Under the pieces are notes generated by a model. That model was not told the DNA's origin. It was given only the letters and a program-made list of their open reading frames with translations, and did not search any database. The position numbers were made by a program, and so were the translations under genes. Source: Gemmatimonadaceae bacterium (GTDB taxonomy: Bacteria > Gemmatimonadota > Gemmatimonadetes > Gemmatimonadales > Gemmatimonadaceae). Taken from it: a stretch of 56,870 nt of DNA. The stretch spans positions 1-56,870 of the forward strand of contig JADZAN010000012.1 in the NCBI GenBank assembly GCA_020852815.1, in the 5' to 3' direction. Positions 37,971 to 46,957 of the stretch are shown here, in pieces; within the stretch, counting starts at the first letter, position 1; every line of letters begins with the position of its first letter.

Positions 37971-39260
37971 TCACGGACGTTTTCTGAAGAGCGCCACCAC
38001 CTGAATGCTGGTCACCAGCGCACCCGCGGCAAAGAGGGCAGCGCCTGTACGAACGCCCAGCGTGATCCCCATGGCGGCGCTGGCGACCAGCACCACGCTC
38101 CCGCTCGCATAGAGCCACGCCGCGCTCCACGCCCCCCGGGCCGAGTAGAGCTCGCCAACCCTGGGCAACGGTCGCGTCCCCGCCAGCGGCCCGAAGCGGT
38201 GATTCCACACCAGGAACGGGACGATCTTGTAGAAGTGCGCGGCCACGAAAGCGCTCACGCTGGTGAGCACCAGCGCCACATACGCCACCTGCACGCGCGG
38301 CGGCGCGAGCCCCGCCACGGTGACGAGCGCAAGCGGCAGCGCAACGCCGAGGCCGGTGAGTGCCACCGCCGCGAGTCGCATCCCCACGTCCAGCGCCTTG
38401 CGGAAGCGATGCGCGTAGTACTCGCGCACCTGCAGGAGAAAGGCAACCACGCCGCTGACGATGAGGACGGCGGGGAGCCAGCGCCCGGCGATGGGGACGT
38501 GATGCAGTACCGCCAGTGCGCCCGCCCCGGCAGCCGTGAGGCGCACCGCCCAGGGCGCGTAGCGATCGCTCCCGCCATGGCTCAGCAGGAACATGGGGAA
38601 GAGGCGCTGCGACACCCCAATGATCGACAGCAGGACCCAGCCGGCCAGCGCGATGTGCAGGTGCGCGCCGAGCGCGATGGGGCGCGCCACGCCCAGGAAG
38701 GCAAGGCGCAGGTTGGCGCTCAGCGCGGCGCCCAGCACCAGCGTCACGACGAGGAAGACCAGCGCGCACGCCAGCGCCAGCCAGAGCGGGTCGCGCGTGG
38801 TGGCTCGGCGCAGCGTGACCGCCGCGTTGGCCACGAACAGCGTCGCCCCCGTCACCAGCGCCACCACCCCCGCCAGGAGCAACGTCTGGCGATCCAGCGC
38901 CAGCCCAACCGTGAAGGCCAGCACCCCCGGGGCATAGCAGGCAAAGCTCACATGGGCCAGGCGCTCCGATGCGATGGGAACGCCCACGGCAACCGGGAGA
39001 AACTGGTACATCGCCCCCATGATGGAGGTCGTGAGCCACCCCAAGGTGACGCAATGGACCACCGCCAGCACCTGGTGCGCCGAATAGCCGCCCACGGCGA
39101 GCATCGGCGCCTGCCACACCGCGCCAACGCCGGCCAACACGAGGAAAACCAGCGCCGTGGCGAAGTGCTCGCCCGGGAGGAGGAAGCGTGGTCCGCTGGT
39201 CACCGAAACTGGAGGCGACACGGGAGCCGATGCGGGTGTCGCTTTGGGAACCGCCGACAC
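37971..39260 (-). CDS. NnrS-like polytopic membrane protein with conserved histidines
   Basis: A 429-residue protein of about 11-12 membrane helices. Histidines lie in predicted helices: HQVLAVVHCVTLGWLTTSIMGAMYQFLP, ALGAHLHIALAGWVLL and AAHFYKIVPFLVWNHRFG. These resemble NnrS and heme-copper subunit I-like proteins seen in denitrification loci. The GTG at 39260 lies just after the SCO stop and gives a natural start, while the ATG at 39311 would overlap SCO by 44 bases. The likely role is NO handling or heme-copper reductase maturation; no direct evidence. Confidence 0.7.
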   Translation of the reverse strand: MSAVPKATPASAPVSPPVSVTSGPRFLLPGEHFATALVFLVLAGVGAVWQAPMLAVGGYSAHQVLAVVHCVTLGWLTTSIMGAMYQFLPVAVGVPIASERLAHVSFACYAPGVLAFTVGLALDRQTLLLAGVVALVTGATLFVANAAVTLRRATTRDPLWLALACALVFLVVTLVLGAALSANLRLAFLGVARPIALGAHLHIALAGWVLLSIIGVSQRLFPMFLLSHGGSDRYAPWAVRLTAAGAGALAVLHHVPIAGRWLPAVLIVSGVVAFLLQVREYYAHRFRKALDVGMRLAAVALTGLGVALPLALVTVAGLAPPRVQVAYVALVLTSVSAFVAAHFYKIVPFLVWNHRFGPLAGTRPLPRVGELYSARGAWSAAWLYASGSVVLVASAAMGITLGVRTGAALFAAGALVTSIQVVALFRKRP

Positions 39261-39267
39261 GCCGCGC

Positions 39268-40200
39268 CTACGGTGTGGCCAGAAGCTCTCGCATGCGGTC
39301 GATCCCTCCATCGAGGCGCGCCGTCAGGCGGCCATTGGCGGCGACGAGGAAGGCCACCGCCGCATGCGAGATGTCGCCGGTGGCTCCGTCACGGGCACGT
39401 CCAATTCCCCATCCATCGAGTACGGCCGTCACCTCGTCCACGCTCCCGCTCAGCACCTTGTCGCCCGCATCCATGCTCCACTGCTTGGCGATGTGCGGGA
39501 GCCGTTCGGGGACGTCGCGCCACGGATCGAGCGTGACGACCACGATGGGCACTTCGCGCGTTGCCTGCGCTCTCGCCTCGCGAAGCTGGTGCACCAGCGT
39601 GGGGCACACGTCGGCACAGTGCGCAAAGGCGAAGGTGACGATGACGGGCGTCCCCTTGGCCTGCGCCAGGTCGAAGCGCCCCCCCGTCTGGTCGGTGAGG
39701 ACCAGCGGCGGCGCCTCGAGGTCGAGGCGCGGCACCGGCTGCGCCGCGGCGTTCACGTCGAAGGCGGCGGGCCCCGCGAGGTCGAGTGCGCCCAGCACCC
39801 GCTGCGCGGCCAGCACGCCCCCCCACGCCAGGGCGCCTAACGTCGACAGCATCGCCACCTTCCCCCACCCGCGCGCGGCCAGCCACGCGAGGTCGCTCCG
39901 CAATGCCTTTCCCCACACGGCCATGAGCGTCCCGATCATCCCGATGGGTTCGCCGATGAGGAGCACCCAGCCGCCCGCCGACGGGAGGCCGGAGCCTACC
40001 GATCCGAAGCAGGCGGCGCGCGTGCGCACCACCCACGCCGGCGGCGCCTGTCCCAACGGCATCAAGGCCAGCGCCCACCACCCGGCAGTGATCACCAGGA
40101 GGAGCGCCAGCGTCACGACCGCGATGCCACGCCCGGGAGTCCTTCCCCGGGCGCGCGCATCGACCGTCGTCTGTTCGAGTGTTGCTACCCGACCTTCCAC
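39268..40200 (-). CDS. SCO1/SenC-type copper chaperone with membrane extension
   Basis: A 310-residue protein. The C-terminal half is a SCO thioredoxin fold with the copper/redox motif FAHCADVCPTLVHQL (two Cys near residue 193) and the distal His in GDISHAAVAF. The N-terminal 130 residues add about three transmembrane segments (VVTLALLLVITAGWWALAL, GGWVLLIGEPIGMIGTLMAVWG, KVAMLSTLGALAWGG), unlike ordinary SCO proteins, which have one. It overlaps the catalytic subunit gene by 16 bases and should deliver copper to CuA or CuB. Confidence 0.9.
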   Translation of the reverse strand: MEGRVATLEQTTVDARARGRTPGRGIAVVTLALLLVITAGWWALALMPLGQAPPAWVVRTRAACFGSVGSGLPSAGGWVLLIGEPIGMIGTLMAVWGKALRSDLAWLAARGWGKVAMLSTLGALAWGGVLAAQRVLGALDLAGPAAFDVNAAAQPVPRLDLEAPPLVLTDQTGGRFDLAQAKGTPVIVTFAFAHCADVCPTLVHQLREARAQATREVPIVVVTLDPWRDVPERLPHIAKQWSMDAGDKVLSGSVDEVTAVLDGWGIGRARDGATGDISHAAVAFLVAANGRLTARLDGGIDRMRELLATP

Positions 40201-41945
40201 AGCACGCTCAGGAGCTTCCAGTTGGTGAAGTAGTACACCACGAACGCCGCGAGGAAGATGCCGACCAGCGCCATGGTCCCCGGCGTCGGCCCGATCCAGC
40301 TCGGGTTCTCGCGATGCAACCGCTCGTTGACCTCATCCACGTTGGCGGGATGCACCGGCGGATTGGTCAACCCCTGCGGCACGCCGGCCACGGCCCGCCC
40401 CGGGACGATCTCCCCCAGCGGCTCACCGAAGAATACCGACTTGACCGCGATCGCGATGAACAGAAGTGCACCGGTCACCGCCATGATCCCGCCAATGCCC
40501 ATCACGGCAAGGACGAGGTCGACGGCCGGGTTGAACTGCACGCTGAACGGCGCCTGCGAGAACGAGATGTCCCAGTGCCGCCGCGGAACCCCGAACGAGC
40601 CGGCAAACGTCATCCCCATGGAGAGCAGGAGCATCCCGATGGCGAAGAGATACGGCTGGATCTTCGCCGCTCCCCAGAACGCAACCTTGCGACGGAAGAC
40701 GAGCGGGAGGAGGTAGTACGTCGCCGCCATGAACGCCATCGCCGTCCCGCTCACCACCGTGGCATGGAAGTGCCCCGGGATGCGCATGGTGTTGTGCGCG
40801 ATGATGTTGATCTGCTCGGTCCCGATGGTCACGCCGGTGATCCCTCCCACGAAACCGAAGACGACGACGGAGAAGACCATGCCGCTGAAGCCCGGGTCGC
40901 CCCACGGCGCGCGCCGCAGCCAGCCAAACAGCCCCTGCGTGTAACCGCGCAGTCGCATCCCGAGCTCCATCCCCGCCGGAACCGTGAAGCCGTGGATCAT
41001 CGACGCCAGCACCGCCATGTACATGAAGTACGACGTGTTCACCACCTTCCACGCCGGCCCGAACCCCGGATCGACCAGGAGATGGTGCGCCGACGCCATG
41101 GAGATGAACAACACGTAGAGCACGAACGCCGAGCGGCTCACCTTCTCGTTGAGCACCACGCCGCCCACGGTAAGCGCCGAGAGCATGTACCACACCGCCA
41201 CCATCGCCGCGACGTTGATCTGCTGCGAGGAGTGACCAAGCGCCCACCAGATCATGCGATAGATCTGCGGATCGACCGACTTGATCACGCCGATGGACCA
41301 GAGGAAGGTCGGGATGTAGATGATGGCACCGTGCAGGAGCGTGATCACGGCGATGATCGCCGCGGTCATTGCGCCGTACACCACCAGCGGCAGCGACCCC
41401 TCATACGTCTTCTCGCGCTTGGCGATCACCAGCGTGGCAAAGAACTGCGCCACGACCAGCAGCGCCCCAACCGCGAACAGGATGATGCCAAGGTAGAAGA
41501 TCGGGTGCGCCTTGAGCGGCGGATACGATGTGAAGAGGACGTCGGCCTTGCCACTCCACTGCATCCACTCGACCAGGATCGTCCCCAGGAGCATCAACCC
41601 GAAGTTCACCCACCCCAGTTTGGGATTGGCCGGCCGCGCATTGAGCAGCGCGGTCGAGGTGAACCAGAGCACCGCCATCTCGAAGTAGATGATGAAGAAG
41701 ATGAGCATGTTCATCCCGTGCACCCCGAGGATGCGGTAGTACCACACCGCGGGGAGGAGATGCACGGCCTGCCAGCGCGTGAGCACCAGCAGGAGGGCCG
41801 CGATCGCGCCAATGAGGAGCGAGACGACGGCGACGACGGCGTTGGCCTTGACGAGCGCCTCTGCCTGACGATGGATGCGGCGGCCGGTGAACGCGCAGGT
41901 ACGGAACGCGTCGGCCGCGCCGGATGCTGTCAGCGTGGCGCTCAT
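40185..41945 (-). CDS. Heme-copper reductase catalytic subunit lacking the active-site Tyr (probable NO reductase)
   Basis: A 586-residue subunit I with about 13-14 helices and B-family (ba3-like) character. Low-spin heme His is H76 (LGVHGMNM), the CuB histidines are H238 (WWALGHSSQQ) and H287-H288 (AHHLLVDPG), and the heme pair is H392/H394 (IPGHFHATV). Oxygen reductases have GHPxxY here, with the Tyr cross-linked to His; position 242 is Gln. Heme-copper NO reductases lack that Tyr, so NO is the favoured substrate. GGAG lies eight bases before ATG. The gene overlaps the CuA gene by four bases. Confidence 0.9.
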   Translation of the reverse strand: MSATLTASGAADAFRTCAFTGRRIHRQAEALVKANAVVAVVSLLIGAIAALLLVLTRWQAVHLLPAVWYYRILGVHGMNMLIFFIIYFEMAVLWFTSTALLNARPANPKLGWVNFGLMLLGTILVEWMQWSGKADVLFTSYPPLKAHPIFYLGIILFAVGALLVVAQFFATLVIAKREKTYEGSLPLVVYGAMTAAIIAVITLLHGAIIYIPTFLWSIGVIKSVDPQIYRMIWWALGHSSQQINVAAMVAVWYMLSALTVGGVVLNEKVSRSAFVLYVLFISMASAHHLLVDPGFGPAWKVVNTSYFMYMAVLASMIHGFTVPAGMELGMRLRGYTQGLFGWLRRAPWGDPGFSGMVFSVVVFGFVGGITGVTIGTEQINIIAHNTMRIPGHFHATVVSGTAMAFMAATYYLLPLVFRRKVAFWGAAKIQPYLFAIGMLLLSMGMTFAGSFGVPRRHWDISFSQAPFSVQFNPAVDLVLAVMGIGGIMAVTGALLFIAIAVKSVFFGEPLGEIVPGRAVAGVPQGLTNPPVHPANVDEVNERLHRENPSWIGPTPGTMALVGIFLAAFVVYYFTNWKLLSVLWKVG

Positions 41946-42547
41946 GGGGTGGCTCCGTTGCCCAGGCGGGCGTTGGCGTTGTCACTCACGCGTTGGCCCG
42001 CCTTGTCGAGCACGATCACGCGTCCCACCATCGTGTGGTGGCCAATACCGCAGAACTCGTTGCAGATGATGCGGAAGTCACCCGAGGCCGTGGGCGTCAC
42101 CTCGAGCGCGTAGTCGTAGCCGGGAACGATCTGGAAGTTCACGTTCAGCGGATACAGGCTGAAGCCGTGGTTCACGTCCAGCGCCGACAGGTGCAAACGG
42201 TACGTCTCGCCCTGCGTGAGCTGCAGGATGGGATACCACTGGAAGGTGAGCGCGGTCATGTACACGTCGCTCCCAGCCGGCGGCTGCACGATGGGGAGCC
42301 CGCGGTCGGTCCCCACCTGGTATTGCTTGGCAAACTCCTGCGTGCGGGCATAGAACGCCCGCGGCTCCACCCGGCGCCTGATCCCCGACGGGTTCTGCCC
42401 GCCGCGCCAGTGCCACAGCGGCATCATGGCAAACAGCACCATGCACCAGGCGAAGGCAATCGCCACCCACACCTTCTCGGCCTTGTGCGCCGGCTTCCAC
42501 CATACGCCGGGGGCCGCATCCAGTCCGGTATGAACCTTGGTCAGCAT
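41942..42547 (-). CDS. CuA-containing heme-copper reductase subunit II
   Basis: A 201-residue subunit with one N-terminal membrane anchor (KVWVAIAFAWCMVLFAMMPLW) and a periplasmic cupredoxin domain. The complete CuA ligand set is present: H127 (DVNHGFSL), then C162-x3-C166-x3-H170-x2-M173 in CNEFCGIGHHTM. This indicates electron entry from a cytochrome c or cupredoxin. A strong GAGGGGAG site precedes the ATG and overlaps the stop of the small subunit upstream. Classical cNOR and qNOR lack CuA; B-family-derived NO reductases and oxidases have it. Confidence 0.92.
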   Translation of the reverse strand: MLTKVHTGLDAAPGVWWKPAHKAEKVWVAIAFAWCMVLFAMMPLWHWRGGQNPSGIRRRVEPRAFYARTQEFAKQYQVGTDRGLPIVQPPAGSDVYMTALTFQWYPILQLTQGETYRLHLSALDVNHGFSLYPLNVNFQIVPGYDYALEVTPTASGDFRIICNEFCGIGHHTMVGRVIVLDKAGQRVSDNANARLGNGATP

Positions 42548-42554
42548 GCTCCCC

Positions 42555-42719
42555 TCACGGTAAGGTGCCTTGCGGCATCGACAGGATCTCCCACATCCCC
42601 CACCCGGTGTAGACGATGAACATCACGACGATGCCAAGCGCCAGCAGCAGGAACACATTGTCGAAGAGCCGCTGCATCAAGGGCGGCGACTCGTCAGGCG
42701 GTGACGCATGATCGGACAC
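42555..42719 (-). CDS. 54-residue single-helix membrane subunit
   Basis: A tiny gene between the regulator and the CuA subunit starting at GTG. It encodes an acidic, Pro-rich N-terminus (SDHASPPDESPP), one transmembrane helix (NVFLLLALGIVVMFIVYTGWGMW) and a short tail. Size and position match the subunit IIa-type helix that replaces the missing second helix of subunit II in ba3-like oxidases. The stop lies seven bases before the CuA start. An in-frame ATG at MQRLFDN is an alternative start. Confidence 0.7.
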   Translation of the reverse strand: MSDHASPPDESPPLMQRLFDNVFLLLALGIVVMFIVYTGWGMWEILSMPQGTLP

Positions 42720-42754: not shown

Positions 42755-43387
42755 CTAGCCACGGCGCGTGCGCGTGGCGGGAGACTGCTTCACGGCGGCC
42801 TGCTTCGCGGACGCCCGCGCGGCAGGCGACTGCTTCGAGGGGGTGGTCTTGGAGGGGGATGACCTGGCGGCAGCCTTCTTCGCGCCGGCGCGCGACGCCG
42901 CCGGCACACCGGGCGTGGGGCCGCGCGTGGGGACACGATGCTCGTGCAACGCGAGGTCGTGCCGCGGCGCCATGGCCGGCTGCTCGGCGATCTCGCCCAG
43001 CAGGTCGGCGATCGTCGTGCGCCGGAAGAACTCGCGCTGCGCATGCGAGATGGCCTCCCAGCGCGGATGCGCCGAGCAGGGGTTCTTCCAGCCGCAACTC
43101 GTGCGCCCCAGGATGCACTTGCTCTCCTCGACGTCGTCGAAGGGAGCGGCCACATCGCCCAGCGTGAGGTCGCGCGCCGCGCGTGCAAGGCGAAAGCCGC
43201 CGCGCGGACCGCGCCCGGATGTGAGCACCCCCGCGCGCGCGAGAGCATGCAGCGTCTTCGAGAGATAGTTGCGCGGAACGCGCAGGTCGGCGGCAATGGC
43301 GTCGACCGGCACGGGATAGTTGGTCCCATGTTCGGCGACGTACAAGACCGCGCGCAAGGCGTATTGCGTGGTGCTGCTCAGCGGCAT
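42755..43387 (-). CDS. Rrf2-family (NsrR/IscR-like) Fe-S transcriptional regulator
   Basis: A 210-residue regulator. The Rrf2 winged-helix domain fills residues 1-85 (TTQYALRAVLYVAEHG, LRVPRNYLSKTLHALARAGVL, GRGPRGGFRLAR). Three cysteines, C91, C98 and C104 (CILGRTSCGWKNPC), sit where IscR and NsrR bind their cluster. A Lys/Ala/Ser/Pro-rich C-terminal tail of about 55 residues is unusual and looks histone H1-like. It is divergent from the cytochrome b fusion gene with an inverted repeat between them. NO sensing is inferred. Confidence 0.88.
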   Translation of the reverse strand: MPLSSTTQYALRAVLYVAEHGTNYPVPVDAIAADLRVPRNYLSKTLHALARAGVLTSGRGPRGGFRLARAARDLTLGDVAAPFDDVEESKCILGRTSCGWKNPCSAHPRWEAISHAQREFFRRTTIADLLGEIAEQPAMAPRHDLALHEHRVPTRGPTPGVPAASRAGAKKAAARSSPSKTTPSKQSPAARASAKQAAVKQSPATRTRRG

Positions 43388-43459: not shown

Positions 43460-43481
43460 TTTATCATGTGAATATGATAAA
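43460..43481. promoter_or_regulatory. Perfect inverted repeat, probable Rrf2 operator
   Basis: TTTATCAT-N6-ATGATAAA, eight-base perfect arms in an AT-rich island of a GC-rich region. It lies 73 bases upstream of the regulator start and about 30 bases upstream of the divergent operon. The size and dyad symmetry fit an Rrf2-family dimer site. It could control both operons and itself. It differs from the TTGAT-N4-ATCAA FNR/DNR box. Confidence 0.7.
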
Positions 43482-43512: not shown

Positions 43513-45129
43513 ATGCTGTCGGCCGTGGCACGGTCCCCGTCCACTCGCCCAGCTGGCATGCGGTCGCTCGAACGCTCCGCCCTTCGCCTCGTCCGCGCTC
43601 TCGACAGCGCGTGTCATCGCCTGCTTGGATGGCGCTACAACCCGCTGCACCAGAGCGGCGCCATCGCAGTCGCCCTCCTCACGGTCCTCATCGTCACCGG
43701 GCTCTACCTGCTCATCTTCTATAGAGTGAGCGCCCCCTGGGAATCGGTGGCTCGCCTGCAGGCCGACCCCTTCATCGGGCGATGGATGCGCGGCGTACAT
43801 CGCTTTGCCTCCGATGCGCTCGTGGTGGCAATCGTCGCACACGTCATCCGCCTTTTCGCGCAGGCGCGCAGTTGGGGGCCGCGCACGCTGGCGTGGGTCT
43901 CCGGCGTCGTCCTCCTCCTCCTCTTATTCACGAGCGGGTGGACAGGATTCGTGATGGTGTGGGACACCTTCGGCGCCCAGCTCGCCCTCGCCGGCGCGCG
44001 CCTGCTCGATGCGCTCCCCGTCCTCTCCGAGCCGGTGTCGCGCACCTTCGCCGGCGATCGCCCCATCCCCTCAGCCTTCTTCTTCCTCAACCTCTTCCTG
44101 CACGTCGCCCTCCCACTCGGCGCCGGCGCCGGCATCTGGTTGCACGTCTCGCGCATTGCGCGCCCCACGCTCCTCCCGCCGCGCCCGTTGCTCTGGGGGA
44201 TGATCGGCGGTCTCGTGGCGCTGGCGCTCCTCCTCCCCGCACCGCTCCCGCCGCACGCCGATCCGTTCGTCGTACCGTCAGAGGTCCCGCTCAACCTCTT
44301 CTATGCGTTCTGGCTCCCGCTCGCCGCCAAGCTTCCGGTGTGGGGGGCGTGGAGCGGAGCCGTGGGCACGTTCGTCTTGCTCCTGCTGGTGCCGCGCCTA
44401 ACGCGGCGCCCACGCGAGGGCTCGTTCGCACCCAGCGTGGTCGATCCGCGCCTGTGCACCGGCTGCAACCAGTGCCCGCAGGATTGCCCGTGGGAAGCGA
44501 TCACGATGCGCAAGCGCGACGACGATCGCCCCACGCTCGTGGCGCACGTCGATCCCGCGTTATGCGTGAGCTGCGGCATCTGCGCCGGCTCGTGCGCGCC
44601 GATGGGCGTGGGACCACTGCATCGCACTGGGCGCGACCAGATTTCCGACATTCGCGTGCTGGCGCGCGACATCTTGCATGTCACCTCGCGCCCGCAGGTG
44701 CTGGCCATCTGTTGTGAGAACGCCGCGCCGGCGCAGCTCGATGCGCTGCGTCGCGAAGGGGCGGTGGTGCAAGGCGTGCCATGCAGCGGCAACCTGCACT
44801 CGTCGGTGGTGGAGCTTGCGCTGCGCGGTGGAGCCGCCGGCGTGATCGTCTTCTCCTGTCCGCCGCGCGACTGCCGCGGGAAGGAGGGACCGCGTTGGCT
44901 GGAGGAGCGCCTGTACAACGAGCGCGAAGCCGAGCTGCAGGCACGCGTCGACCGTCGCCGTGTGTCCACCGCCATCATGGTCATCGGCGACCAGGCGGCT
45001 ACGCTCACCGCGTTCCGCGACTTCCGCGATTCGCTCCTGCCATTGGGAATCGTTGCACCTGAGGAGCTGGAAGACCCCGACGCGCTGTGCGAGCCCGTCC
45101 CACCTGCCGCCACCAAGGAGGGGAGATGA
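43513..45129 (+). CDS. Cytochrome b / 2x[4Fe-4S] / MvhD-like fusion protein
   Basis: A 538-residue three-part protein. Residues 15-300 are a QcrB-like cytochrome b with two His pairs, each 14 apart (HRFASDALVVAIVAH and HVALPLGAGAGIWLH), for two hemes. Residues about 315-365 are a two-cluster ferredoxin (CTGCNQCPQDCP and CVSCGICAGSC). Residues 395-460 resemble the MvhD/hydrogenase delta subunit (AICCEN, CSGNLHSS, CPPRDC). A route from quinol or a soluble donor to a membrane chain is likely. The start is uncertain: GTG 43468 or ATG 43474 would lie in the operator. Confidence 0.85.
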   Translation: MLSAVARSPSTRPAGMRSLERSALRLVRALDSACHRLLGWRYNPLHQSGAIAVALLTVLIVTGLYLLIFYRVSAPWESVARLQADPFIGRWMRGVHRFASDALVVAIVAHVIRLFAQARSWGPRTLAWVSGVVLLLLLFTSGWTGFVMVWDTFGAQLALAGARLLDALPVLSEPVSRTFAGDRPIPSAFFFLNLFLHVALPLGAGAGIWLHVSRIARPTLLPPRPLLWGMIGGLVALALLLPAPLPPHADPFVVPSEVPLNLFYAFWLPLAAKLPVWGAWSGAVGTFVLLLLVPRLTRRPREGSFAPSVVDPRLCTGCNQCPQDCPWEAITMRKRDDDRPTLVAHVDPALCVSCGICAGSCAPMGVGPLHRTGRDQISDIRVLARDILHVTSRPQVLAICCENAAPAQLDALRREGAVVQGVPCSGNLHSSVVELALRGGAAGVIVFSCPPRDCRGKEGPRWLEERLYNEREAELQARVDRRRVSTAIMVIGDQAATLTAFRDFRDSLLPLGIVAPEELEDPDALCEPVPPAATKEGR

Positions 45130-45788
45130 GCCCCACTCCCGCCCGCGCGGTCGCCGTCGGTGCCGCCAGCGTCCTCTTTCTCGTCGCCCTGCGCGCCGCC
45201 TCCTTCATCCCCACCACCGATGCGCGCGGCGACTCGGCGTGGGTGCGCCTGAGTTGGAGCGCGCGCCCGGAGCGCGTGGAGCATTGTCGCCGCCTCTCGG
45301 ACGAGGAGCTGGAAGCGCGGCCTGCGCACATGCGCCTTCGCTTCGAGTGCGAGGGGCGCTTTGCGCGCTACGAATTGCGACTGACGGTTGACGATTCCGT
45401 CGCCGTGCGCGACGTGGTGCAGGGCGACGGGCTGCGCCACGACCGCCCCATGCACGTGCTGCGCGAGCACGCGCTCCGCCCCGGCGAGCGGCACCTGCTG
45501 GTCACGCTCGCTCGCCTGGACTCGGCCACCGCCACGGCGCAGGACTCCATTGCCGGGACCACCGGCGTCACCGGCGAGCAAGTGCGCCCGGGCGCTGAGT
45601 CGGACACCGTGCTGGGTGAACGCGAGGGGCGGGAGCGGGAGGAACGCGCCCGCCGGGCCGCCGAGTCGATTCCGGCGCGCCTTTCGCTCGACACCACGAT
45701 TACACTTGGGGCGGGGCGCGTCGTCCTCGTCACGTACGACGGCGCGCGCCGCGTGCTCGTGGCGCGGACCGGGAGTGCGAGCCCGTGA
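45126..45788 (+). CDS. Membrane-anchored protein of unknown function
   Basis: A 220-residue protein. An N-terminal anchor (AVAVGAASVLFLVALRAASF) is followed by a soluble extracytoplasmic part with paired cysteines (VEHCRR, FECEG) and two beta-rich stretches (RYELRLTVDDSVAVRDVV, ITLGAGRVVLVTYDGARRVLV). A charged Glu/Arg segment joins them. It overlaps the fusion gene (ATGA, with AAGGAGGGGAG upstream) and the heme A synthase gene (GTGA). Such tight coupling implies a role in the same complex or its assembly. No family recognised. Confidence 0.8.
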   Translation: MSPTPARAVAVGAASVLFLVALRAASFIPTTDARGDSAWVRLSWSARPERVEHCRRLSDEELEARPAHMRLRFECEGRFARYELRLTVDDSVAVRDVVQGDGLRHDRPMHVLREHALRPGERHLLVTLARLDSATATAQDSIAGTTGVTGEQVRPGAESDTVLGEREGREREERARRAAESIPARLSLDTTITLGAGRVVLVTYDGARRVLVARTGSASP

Positions 45789-46957
45789 CCTCGATCCGTC
45801 CCTCGATCGACTCCGCGCCCGGCGTTGCGCACACACCGTGGCGCACGACCAGCGTTGAAGACATCGACGTGACCTACATCCCCTCTGCCGCCAACGATCG
45901 CGCCGTGAGGCGGTGGCTGTATGCCACCATGTTGTCCGTCCTCGCCGTCCTCGTCGTCGGCGGGATCACGCGACTCACCGAGAGCGGGCTTTCGATCACC
46001 GTCTGGAAGCCCATCACCGGCGTCCTCCCCCCGCTCTCCGAGTCGGCGTGGGAGCATGCGTTCGCGCAGTACCAGCAGATCCCCGAGGCGCAGACCGTTC
46101 ACGCCGGAATCACGCTCCAGAAGTTCAAGTCGCTCTTCTTCTGGGAGTGGGCGCACCGCCTGGTGGCGCGCCTGGTGGGGCTCGTCATCGCCGTTCCGTT
46201 CTTCGTCTTGTTGCTGCGCGGGCGCATTCGCCCGTCGCTGCGGCTGCGCATGGCCAACCTGCCGCTCCTCGTCACGTTGCAGGGGGCCATGGGGTGGTAC
46301 ATGGTGCAGAGCGGGCTGTCGGAGCGGACTTCGGTGTCGCAGTACCGCCTAACGGCACACCTGGCGCTGGCCGTCGTCATCTATGTCGTGGCGGCGTGGA
46401 CCGCCTTTCGTCTGCTTCCCGCCAGCGAGGGCGACGCCGCGGCCACCGATCACACCGAACCCAACGGCGGCGCGCTGGCGCTCTCGGCGCTCGTCTTCGT
46501 CGTCATTCTCAGTGGCGGATTCGTGGCCGGGCTCGATGCGGGGCTGGTGTACAACACCTTCCCGCTGATGGGGGGGAGCGTACTTCCGCCCACGTATGGC
46601 GACCTGACGCCGATGTGGCGCAACTGGTTCGAGAACCCGGCCGCGGTGCAGTTCCATCACCGCACGCTCGCGCTCGTGACGCTTGGGCTCGCGCTCTGGT
46701 ATGCGTGGCGGCGCCGGTCGGCGCTCGCCGACGCCAAGGCGCGTCAAGCGTGGGGCTTCGTGCAGCTGGCGGCGGCGGTGCAGGTGTCGCTGGGGGTGGC
46801 GACGCTTCTGCTTCACGTCCCGATATCGCTGGCGGCGCTGCACCAGGCTGGGGCGCTGGGGTTGCTGACGGCGACGCTGTATGCGGGGGCGCGGGATGGG
46901 GTGGCGGTACCGCGTGCCGCCCGCACTACCGCTATCGAGGGCGCCGCGGCCAATTGA
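45785..46957 (+). CDS. ctaA: Heme A synthase (CtaA/COX15 type)
   Basis: A 390-residue membrane protein with eight predicted helices. COX15/CtaA signatures are GGITRLTESGLSITVWKPITG, FFWEWAHRLVARLVG, LTAHLALAV, VQFHHRTLALV and LAALHQAGALG, giving the heme-ligand histidines. It converts heme O to heme A. Its presence in the operon suggests that the neighbouring reductase uses an A-type heme, whereas cNOR and qNOR use heme b. The GTG start overlaps the previous stop by four bases. No ctaB (heme O synthase) lies in the window. Confidence 0.9.
   Translation: MTSIRPSIDSAPGVAHTPWRTTSVEDIDVTYIPSAANDRAVRRWLYATMLSVLAVLVVGGITRLTESGLSITVWKPITGVLPPLSESAWEHAFAQYQQIPEAQTVHAGITLQKFKSLFFWEWAHRLVARLVGLVIAVPFFVLLLRGRIRPSLRLRMANLPLLVTLQGAMGWYMVQSGLSERTSVSQYRLTAHLALAVVIYVVAAWTAFRLLPASEGDAAATDHTEPNGGALALSALVFVVILSGGFVAGLDAGLVYNTFPLMGGSVLPPTYGDLTPMWRNWFENPAAVQFHHRTLALVTLGLALWYAWRRRSALADAKARQAWGFVQLAAAVQVSLGVATLLLHVPISLAALHQAGALGLLTATLYAGARDGVAVPRAARTTAIEGAAAN

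Follow-up and report, generated by a model that had tools for sequence, protein, structure and literature searches.

A single gene in the window (the whole 56,870-nucleotide stretch of Gemmatimonadaceae DNA that was analyzed) encodes a fusion of a diheme cytochrome b, a two-cluster ferredoxin, and an FlpD/MvhD domain. It lies divergent from a gene cluster predicted to encode an NO reductase of the poorly studied eNOR type, and the fusion probably serves that enzyme as a dedicated electron-transfer accessory, in supply or in assembly. The parts are known, and their combination has been listed once before, undiscussed in the available part of the source (PMC8756737); comparison across genomes shows it here as a conserved partner of eNOR. 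A literature search that combined cytochrome b, FlpD, and NO reductase returned only that paper.

Domain architecture of the fusion protein

The fusion gene (43558..45129, + strand) encodes 523 residues in one uninterrupted frame. The initial annotation had started it at 43513, which would give 538 residues. Met16 (window position 43558) shares its alignment column with a Met in many homologues, so 43558 is probably the start and 43513 is less likely. Each of the three domains proposed in that annotation had matches above the Pfam cut-offs. The cytochrome b domain (43627..44415, + strand; PF00033/PF13631 over residues 47–217) has six helices. Its heme ligands, H96/H110 and H197/H211 (numbered from 43513), form the two expected pairs, each with a spacing of 14, and are invariant in 23 homologues. 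The ferredoxin domain (44434..44610, + strand; 4Fe-4S dicluster at residues ∼309–362) has eight Cys, in C315–C325 and C351–C361. The FlpD domain (44698..45048, + strand; PF02662 over residues 396–512) scored 44.6 bits against a gathering score of 22.3 and has C401, C424, C449, and C454. The eight-Cys ferredoxin and the MvhD-type Cys domain are thus as first described, and their Cys are at least 90% conserved in the 23 homologues. Nine sequences aligned over the C-terminal part of the fusion show the four FlpD Cys and the six covered ferredoxin Cys as invariant. Loss of ligands in homologues, named at the outset as an observation that would speak against the proposal, was looked for in the same 23 sequences; heme and Cys ligands were kept. 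On its score and conserved Cys, the C-terminal domain belongs to the FlpD/MvhD family and is a putative [2Fe-2S] cluster site. In one genome of the Bdellovibrionia (G153; loci L029 and L066), the fusion frame is only 460 aa long and matches the window protein no farther than the cytochrome b part; loss, splitting, or interruption of the iron-sulfur end may account for this.

AlphaFold2 was used to model the fusion from 23 sequences (mean pLDDT 79, pTM 0.75). The model matched bc1 cytochrome b with a Z of ∼21 over ∼258 residues, through helices E and F to the end of helix F. This fold and the two His pairs place the protein in the cytochrome b superfamily. The earlier label "QcrB-like" therefore holds for the fold; it does not hold for the PEWY-equivalent region, which reads PLNLFY in the window protein and varies among homologues, the PEWY glutamate being unconserved. 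Such a degenerate and variable region leaves normal Qo chemistry unsupported for the fusion. The protein shares the six-helix core and heme ligands with the cytochrome b of bc1/b6f complexes, but it does not keep PEWY and carries C-terminal iron-sulfur domains, and neither a Rieske nor a cytochrome c1 gene was seen in its cluster; we do not assign it to that group. The FlpD part of the model matched MvhD of the Hdr-hydrogenase complex (5odc_D, TM-score 0.69 by target length), and its Cys in the motifs VPCSGN and SCPPRDC fall on MvhD positions in the alignment. Three of the four conserved Cys align to 5odc_D and the fourth to 7bkb_F; MvhD proteins carry a further Cys beyond these four. The NCBIfam model of the HdrA2 C-terminal end (NF040770) matches residues 308–511, so that the fusion has both the ferredoxin-then-FlpD order and the MvhD fold in common with HdrA2-FlpD and the MvhD of Hdr complexes. 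Unlike these, it is membrane-bound and has neither a flavin domain nor HdrBC. Cytochrome b topology would place the iron-sulfur and FlpD parts in the cytoplasm.

The next open reading frame (45126..45788, + strand) overlaps the fusion stop codon with its start (ATGA) and is kept downstream of the fusion across loci. Its product, the partner protein, has one predicted N-terminal helix, a putative β-sandwich, and two invariant Cys. A search for a Pfam family returned none, and structure comparison gave weak β-sandwich matches (best Z 8.9), among which the Ig-like domain of CcoG did not appear. A partner-homologous domain lies within the fusion polypeptide itself in other lineages, by BLAST match in loci L063 and L064 and by alignment in the L058–L062 group; judged by these homologies, the partner belongs to the unit of the fusion. 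The gene after it encodes CtaA, the heme A synthase (45785..46957, + strand; Pfam), and ctaA holds this position in several linked loci.

The divergent cluster and its candidate operator

On the − strand, an Rrf2-family regulator (42755..43387) adjoins the fusion gene. The cluster continues with a small single-helix subunit (42555..42719, start approximate), subunit II (41942..42547), the catalytic subunit (40185..41945), and a copper-center assembly protein of the SCO/SenC family (39268..40200). In alignments, the catalytic subunit has the metal-binding His of the heme-copper fold in GH, HH, and HFH motifs, and reads GHSSQQ where B-type oxidases carry GHxxVY. Gln242 (41220–41222) thus replaces the oxidase Tyr, which agrees with the proposal that the fusion is divergent from a Tyr-less heme-copper cluster. 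All 26 clade members have GHSSQQ or a closely similar motif, and four related B-type oxidases have Tyr. A tree set the 26 Gln-bearing sequences, including those of Thermus and Thermomicrobium, apart from the four Tyr-bearing ones with 100/100 support. Subunit II has a CuA motif and COX2 matches. By the criterion of PMC8756737, eNOR carries Gln where oxidases have the cross-linked Tyr, and the eNOR clusters of Chloroflexi, Thermus, and others have a catalytic subunit of this kind and a cupredoxin subunit II in common. From the residue and the clade, we therefore predict that the neighboring cluster encodes an NO reductase of the eNOR type, a family with a characterized member in Rhodothermus marinus. 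The replacement of Tyr by Gln and the separation of the clade disfavor an oxygen reductase, and the published sNOR residue, which is Asn where Gln stands here, speaks against an sNOR. Farther along the − strand (37971–39311) is a membrane protein of 446 aa whose COX1 match (20 bits) falls below the threshold. It has no relative in 29 compared loci and was left out of the unit; a 28%-identical relative was noted in locus L059 (14395–15696).

A palindrome, TTATCATGTGAATATGATAA (43461..43480), sits between the Rrf2 gene and the fusion gene. No chance matches are expected in shuffles of the window, and the pattern TTATCAT-N6-ATGATAA has one exact place in the 5.38-Mb genome. Most Gemmatimonadota loci keep the palindrome, somewhat varied, at the equivalent place. 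These observations support the shared control site of the initial annotation and make the palindrome a candidate operator, to which the Rrf2 protein would bind. The regulator has the Rrf2 fold (PF02082) and three conserved Cys columns, as looked for in an NsrR, and its score against the NsrR model NF008240 (45.8 bits) is below the cut-off of 182; that it senses NO is a guess. Two Thermus eNOR clusters have their own Rrf2 regulator together with a DUF542 protein (L033, 9556–10223; L081, 7559–8230), a combination that would fit NO-stress control of eNOR. A second Rrf2-family regulator of the host is divergent from its clade II nosZ (L074, 9346–9876; genome G000, contig C35).

Co-occurrence with eNOR and the respiratory context

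Co-occurrence was examined in the phyla reached through the loci. Among 150 Gemmatimonadota genomes, 38 have the fusion, 37 the eNOR subunit, and 36 both (Fisher p ∼4e-31, uncorrected for relatedness), nearly always on the same contig and within ∼2 kb. In a second phylum (that of locus L025; Myxococcota according to the tree tool), fusion and eNOR are carried by the same 10 of 52 genomes, and the sets are identical even where the genes lie on separate contigs. A strong fusion match was found in six of 191 Bdellovibrionota genomes, with eNOR genes adjoining in the same direction. An alphaproteobacterial (Defluviimonas) plasmid has the order small subunit, II, I, cyoE, SCO, fusion, hypothetical, hemerythrin; the gene of the hemerythrin family (L031, 13538–13942) closes the run. 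Linkage to reductase clusters in related genomes, which had been predicted, thus recurs in each of these groups, and co-occurrence and the conserved operator rule out chance linkage. As for exceptions, the fusion match of genome G141 is a partial frame (residues 247–530). Genome G108 (97% complete; L065, C2:200000–216000) has the fusion with intact ligands, the partner, and ctaA, and a search of that genome found no eNOR.

The fusion and its partner protein are absent from the eNOR clusters of Thermus and Thermomicrobium that were examined. A coarse scan of open reading frames found clusters with the fusion to be mostly without a cytochrome c gene. Such a gene is present in the Thermus eNOR clusters and in two B-type oxidase clusters from bacteria; two from archaea carry halocyanin. 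Median identity to the window proteins is 58% for the fusion, 80 and 76% for the core subunits, and 46% for SCO.

The host is a soil-type bacterium with NirK and clade II NosZ, so that, with eNOR, the genome encodes the path from nitrite to N2. A search of the genome for a second PF00033 cytochrome b found none; the fusion is the sole match, which rules out a bc1 complex. A run of host genes fits alternative complex III (pentaheme cytochrome, molybdopterin-type iron-sulfur protein, NrfD, and cytochrome c), and a route from quinol to cytochrome c therefore exists. A search for a second FlpD protein also found none, ruling out a soluble MvhD-HdrA partner elsewhere in the host.

Proposed electron supply and its alternatives

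The combination had been called no standard respiratory subunit, a fair description, although Table A3 of PMC8756737 lists a similar protein. By its listed domains, this Chloroflexi ORF (RME88945.1) joins cytochrome b6, a DMSOR-beta-like part, and FlpD, as the fusion does, and has an additional cytochrome c domain.

The fusion travels with eNOR almost without exception, so it probably feeds the enzyme or helps to build it. We lean, tentatively and at somewhat less than even odds, toward the supply of catalytic electrons to eNOR by a transmembrane relay, which we place slightly ahead of a reductase that serves assembly alone. In such a relay, the FlpD and iron-sulfur parts would dock a soluble dehydrogenase in the cytoplasm. 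Electrons would pass from FlpD to the [4Fe-4S] clusters, on to the two hemes b, and then to the periplasmic face or to quinone, from where they would reach eNOR with the aid of the anchored β-sandwich partner. The initial annotation had likewise suggested that the fusion may carry electrons between a soluble low-potential donor and either the quinone pool or the reductase. This reading draws on the full cofactor chain with its conserved ligands, the near-perfect co-occurrence in Gemmatimonadota and the second phylum, and the single gene runs of the Bdellovibrionota loci and the Defluviimonas plasmid. The single conserved candidate operator between the divergent units and the occurrence, in other lineages, of partner and relay in one polypeptide point the same way. 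So do the scarcity of cytochrome c genes in fusion clusters, set against the Thermus eNOR and B-type oxidase clusters, and the cytochrome c domain that Table A3 gives within the ORF of the Chloroflexi relative. However, the alternative complex III of the host, with its cytochrome c subunits, could feed subunit II without the need for a further donor. The fusion is missing from the clusters of Thermus and Thermomicrobium, the G108 genome retains fusion, partner, and ctaA with no eNOR detected, and the fusion gene often adjoins the assembly genes SCO, cyoE, and ctaA.

Some of these same facts suit an assembly reductase, which would carry electrons to the periplasm so that the copper centers of eNOR can form. 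Its substrate there would be Cu(II) or else thiols in SCO and subunit II. We regard this role as a real possibility, if a doubtful one. CcoG, a cupric reductase, has two tetranuclear clusters and a periplasmic Ig-like domain (PMC7558416). The fusion unit parallels CcoG/FixG in its membrane part, cytoplasmic 2[4Fe-4S] ferredoxin, putative periplasmic β-sandwich, and tie to a heme-copper enzyme cluster, and by analogy it may act as a cupric reductase. The neighboring SCO, ctaA, and cyoE, the two invariant Cys of the partner, the G108 locus with ctaA beside the fusion, and the complex III already present in the host are consistent with assembly, as is a fusion identity between those of the core subunits and SCO. 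There is also a precedent in Bordetella, where CrpH, a PepSY_TM membrane protein with a heme motif, supports heme-copper enzymes (PMC13038864). Yet a cytochrome b fold with a quinone-site region and an FlpD docking domain exceed the needs of a copper reductase, and neither domain belongs to CcoG/FixG. The β-sandwich is here usually a separate protein that matches no Pfam family, no copper-binding motif has come to light, and other eNORs manage without the fusion. No CcoG family is among the Pfam matches of the fusion or the 25 of its 33 NCBIfam matches that are listed. In the opposite direction, quinol oxidation would drive electrons into the hemes b and clusters, and FlpD would hand them to a low-potential acceptor in the cytosol; the high-potential electrons would go to eNOR. 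Such inward flow would suit the bc1-type fold and the archaeal role of FlpD/MvhD in feeding bifurcating HdrA complexes (PMC9012536). The unconserved PEWY glutamate, the lack of a visible Rieske gene in the cluster, and a host genome with no other FlpD make it improbable. About as improbable, or slightly more so, is a fusion that shares its control with eNOR but works elsewhere, perhaps by donating electrons to CtaA for heme A synthesis. The position of ctaA as next gene in several loci and its retention with the fusion and partner in G108 would fit, but ctaA lies away from the fusion in many linked loci and eNOR is nearly always present.

Relay supply to eNOR would have familiar counterparts. 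NosR and NapGH serve their own reductases as electron suppliers, and the proposed arrangement of cytoplasmic ferredoxin, membrane domain, and periplasmic domain recalls NosR and NapH, although the membrane domain of the fusion differs. It is conceivable, if unlikely, that the fusion is a separately built version of the NosR/CcoG layout, through which cytosolic dehydrogenases of several bacterial phyla would pass electrons straight to a CuA-type NO reductase, bypassing the quinol-cytochrome c route.

With their clade II nosZ, Gemmatimonadota are of importance for the removal of N2O. One survey of genomes with denitrification genes classed 13% of the Gemmatimonadota among them as having nir and nosZ and no nor (PMC12569097). 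A dedicated relay, if true, would account for the way in which such bacteria power eNOR, and the fusion would then be a marker for its eNOR subgroup. In a host with no other FlpD protein, it becomes testable whether FlpD functions outside Hdr-type complexes.
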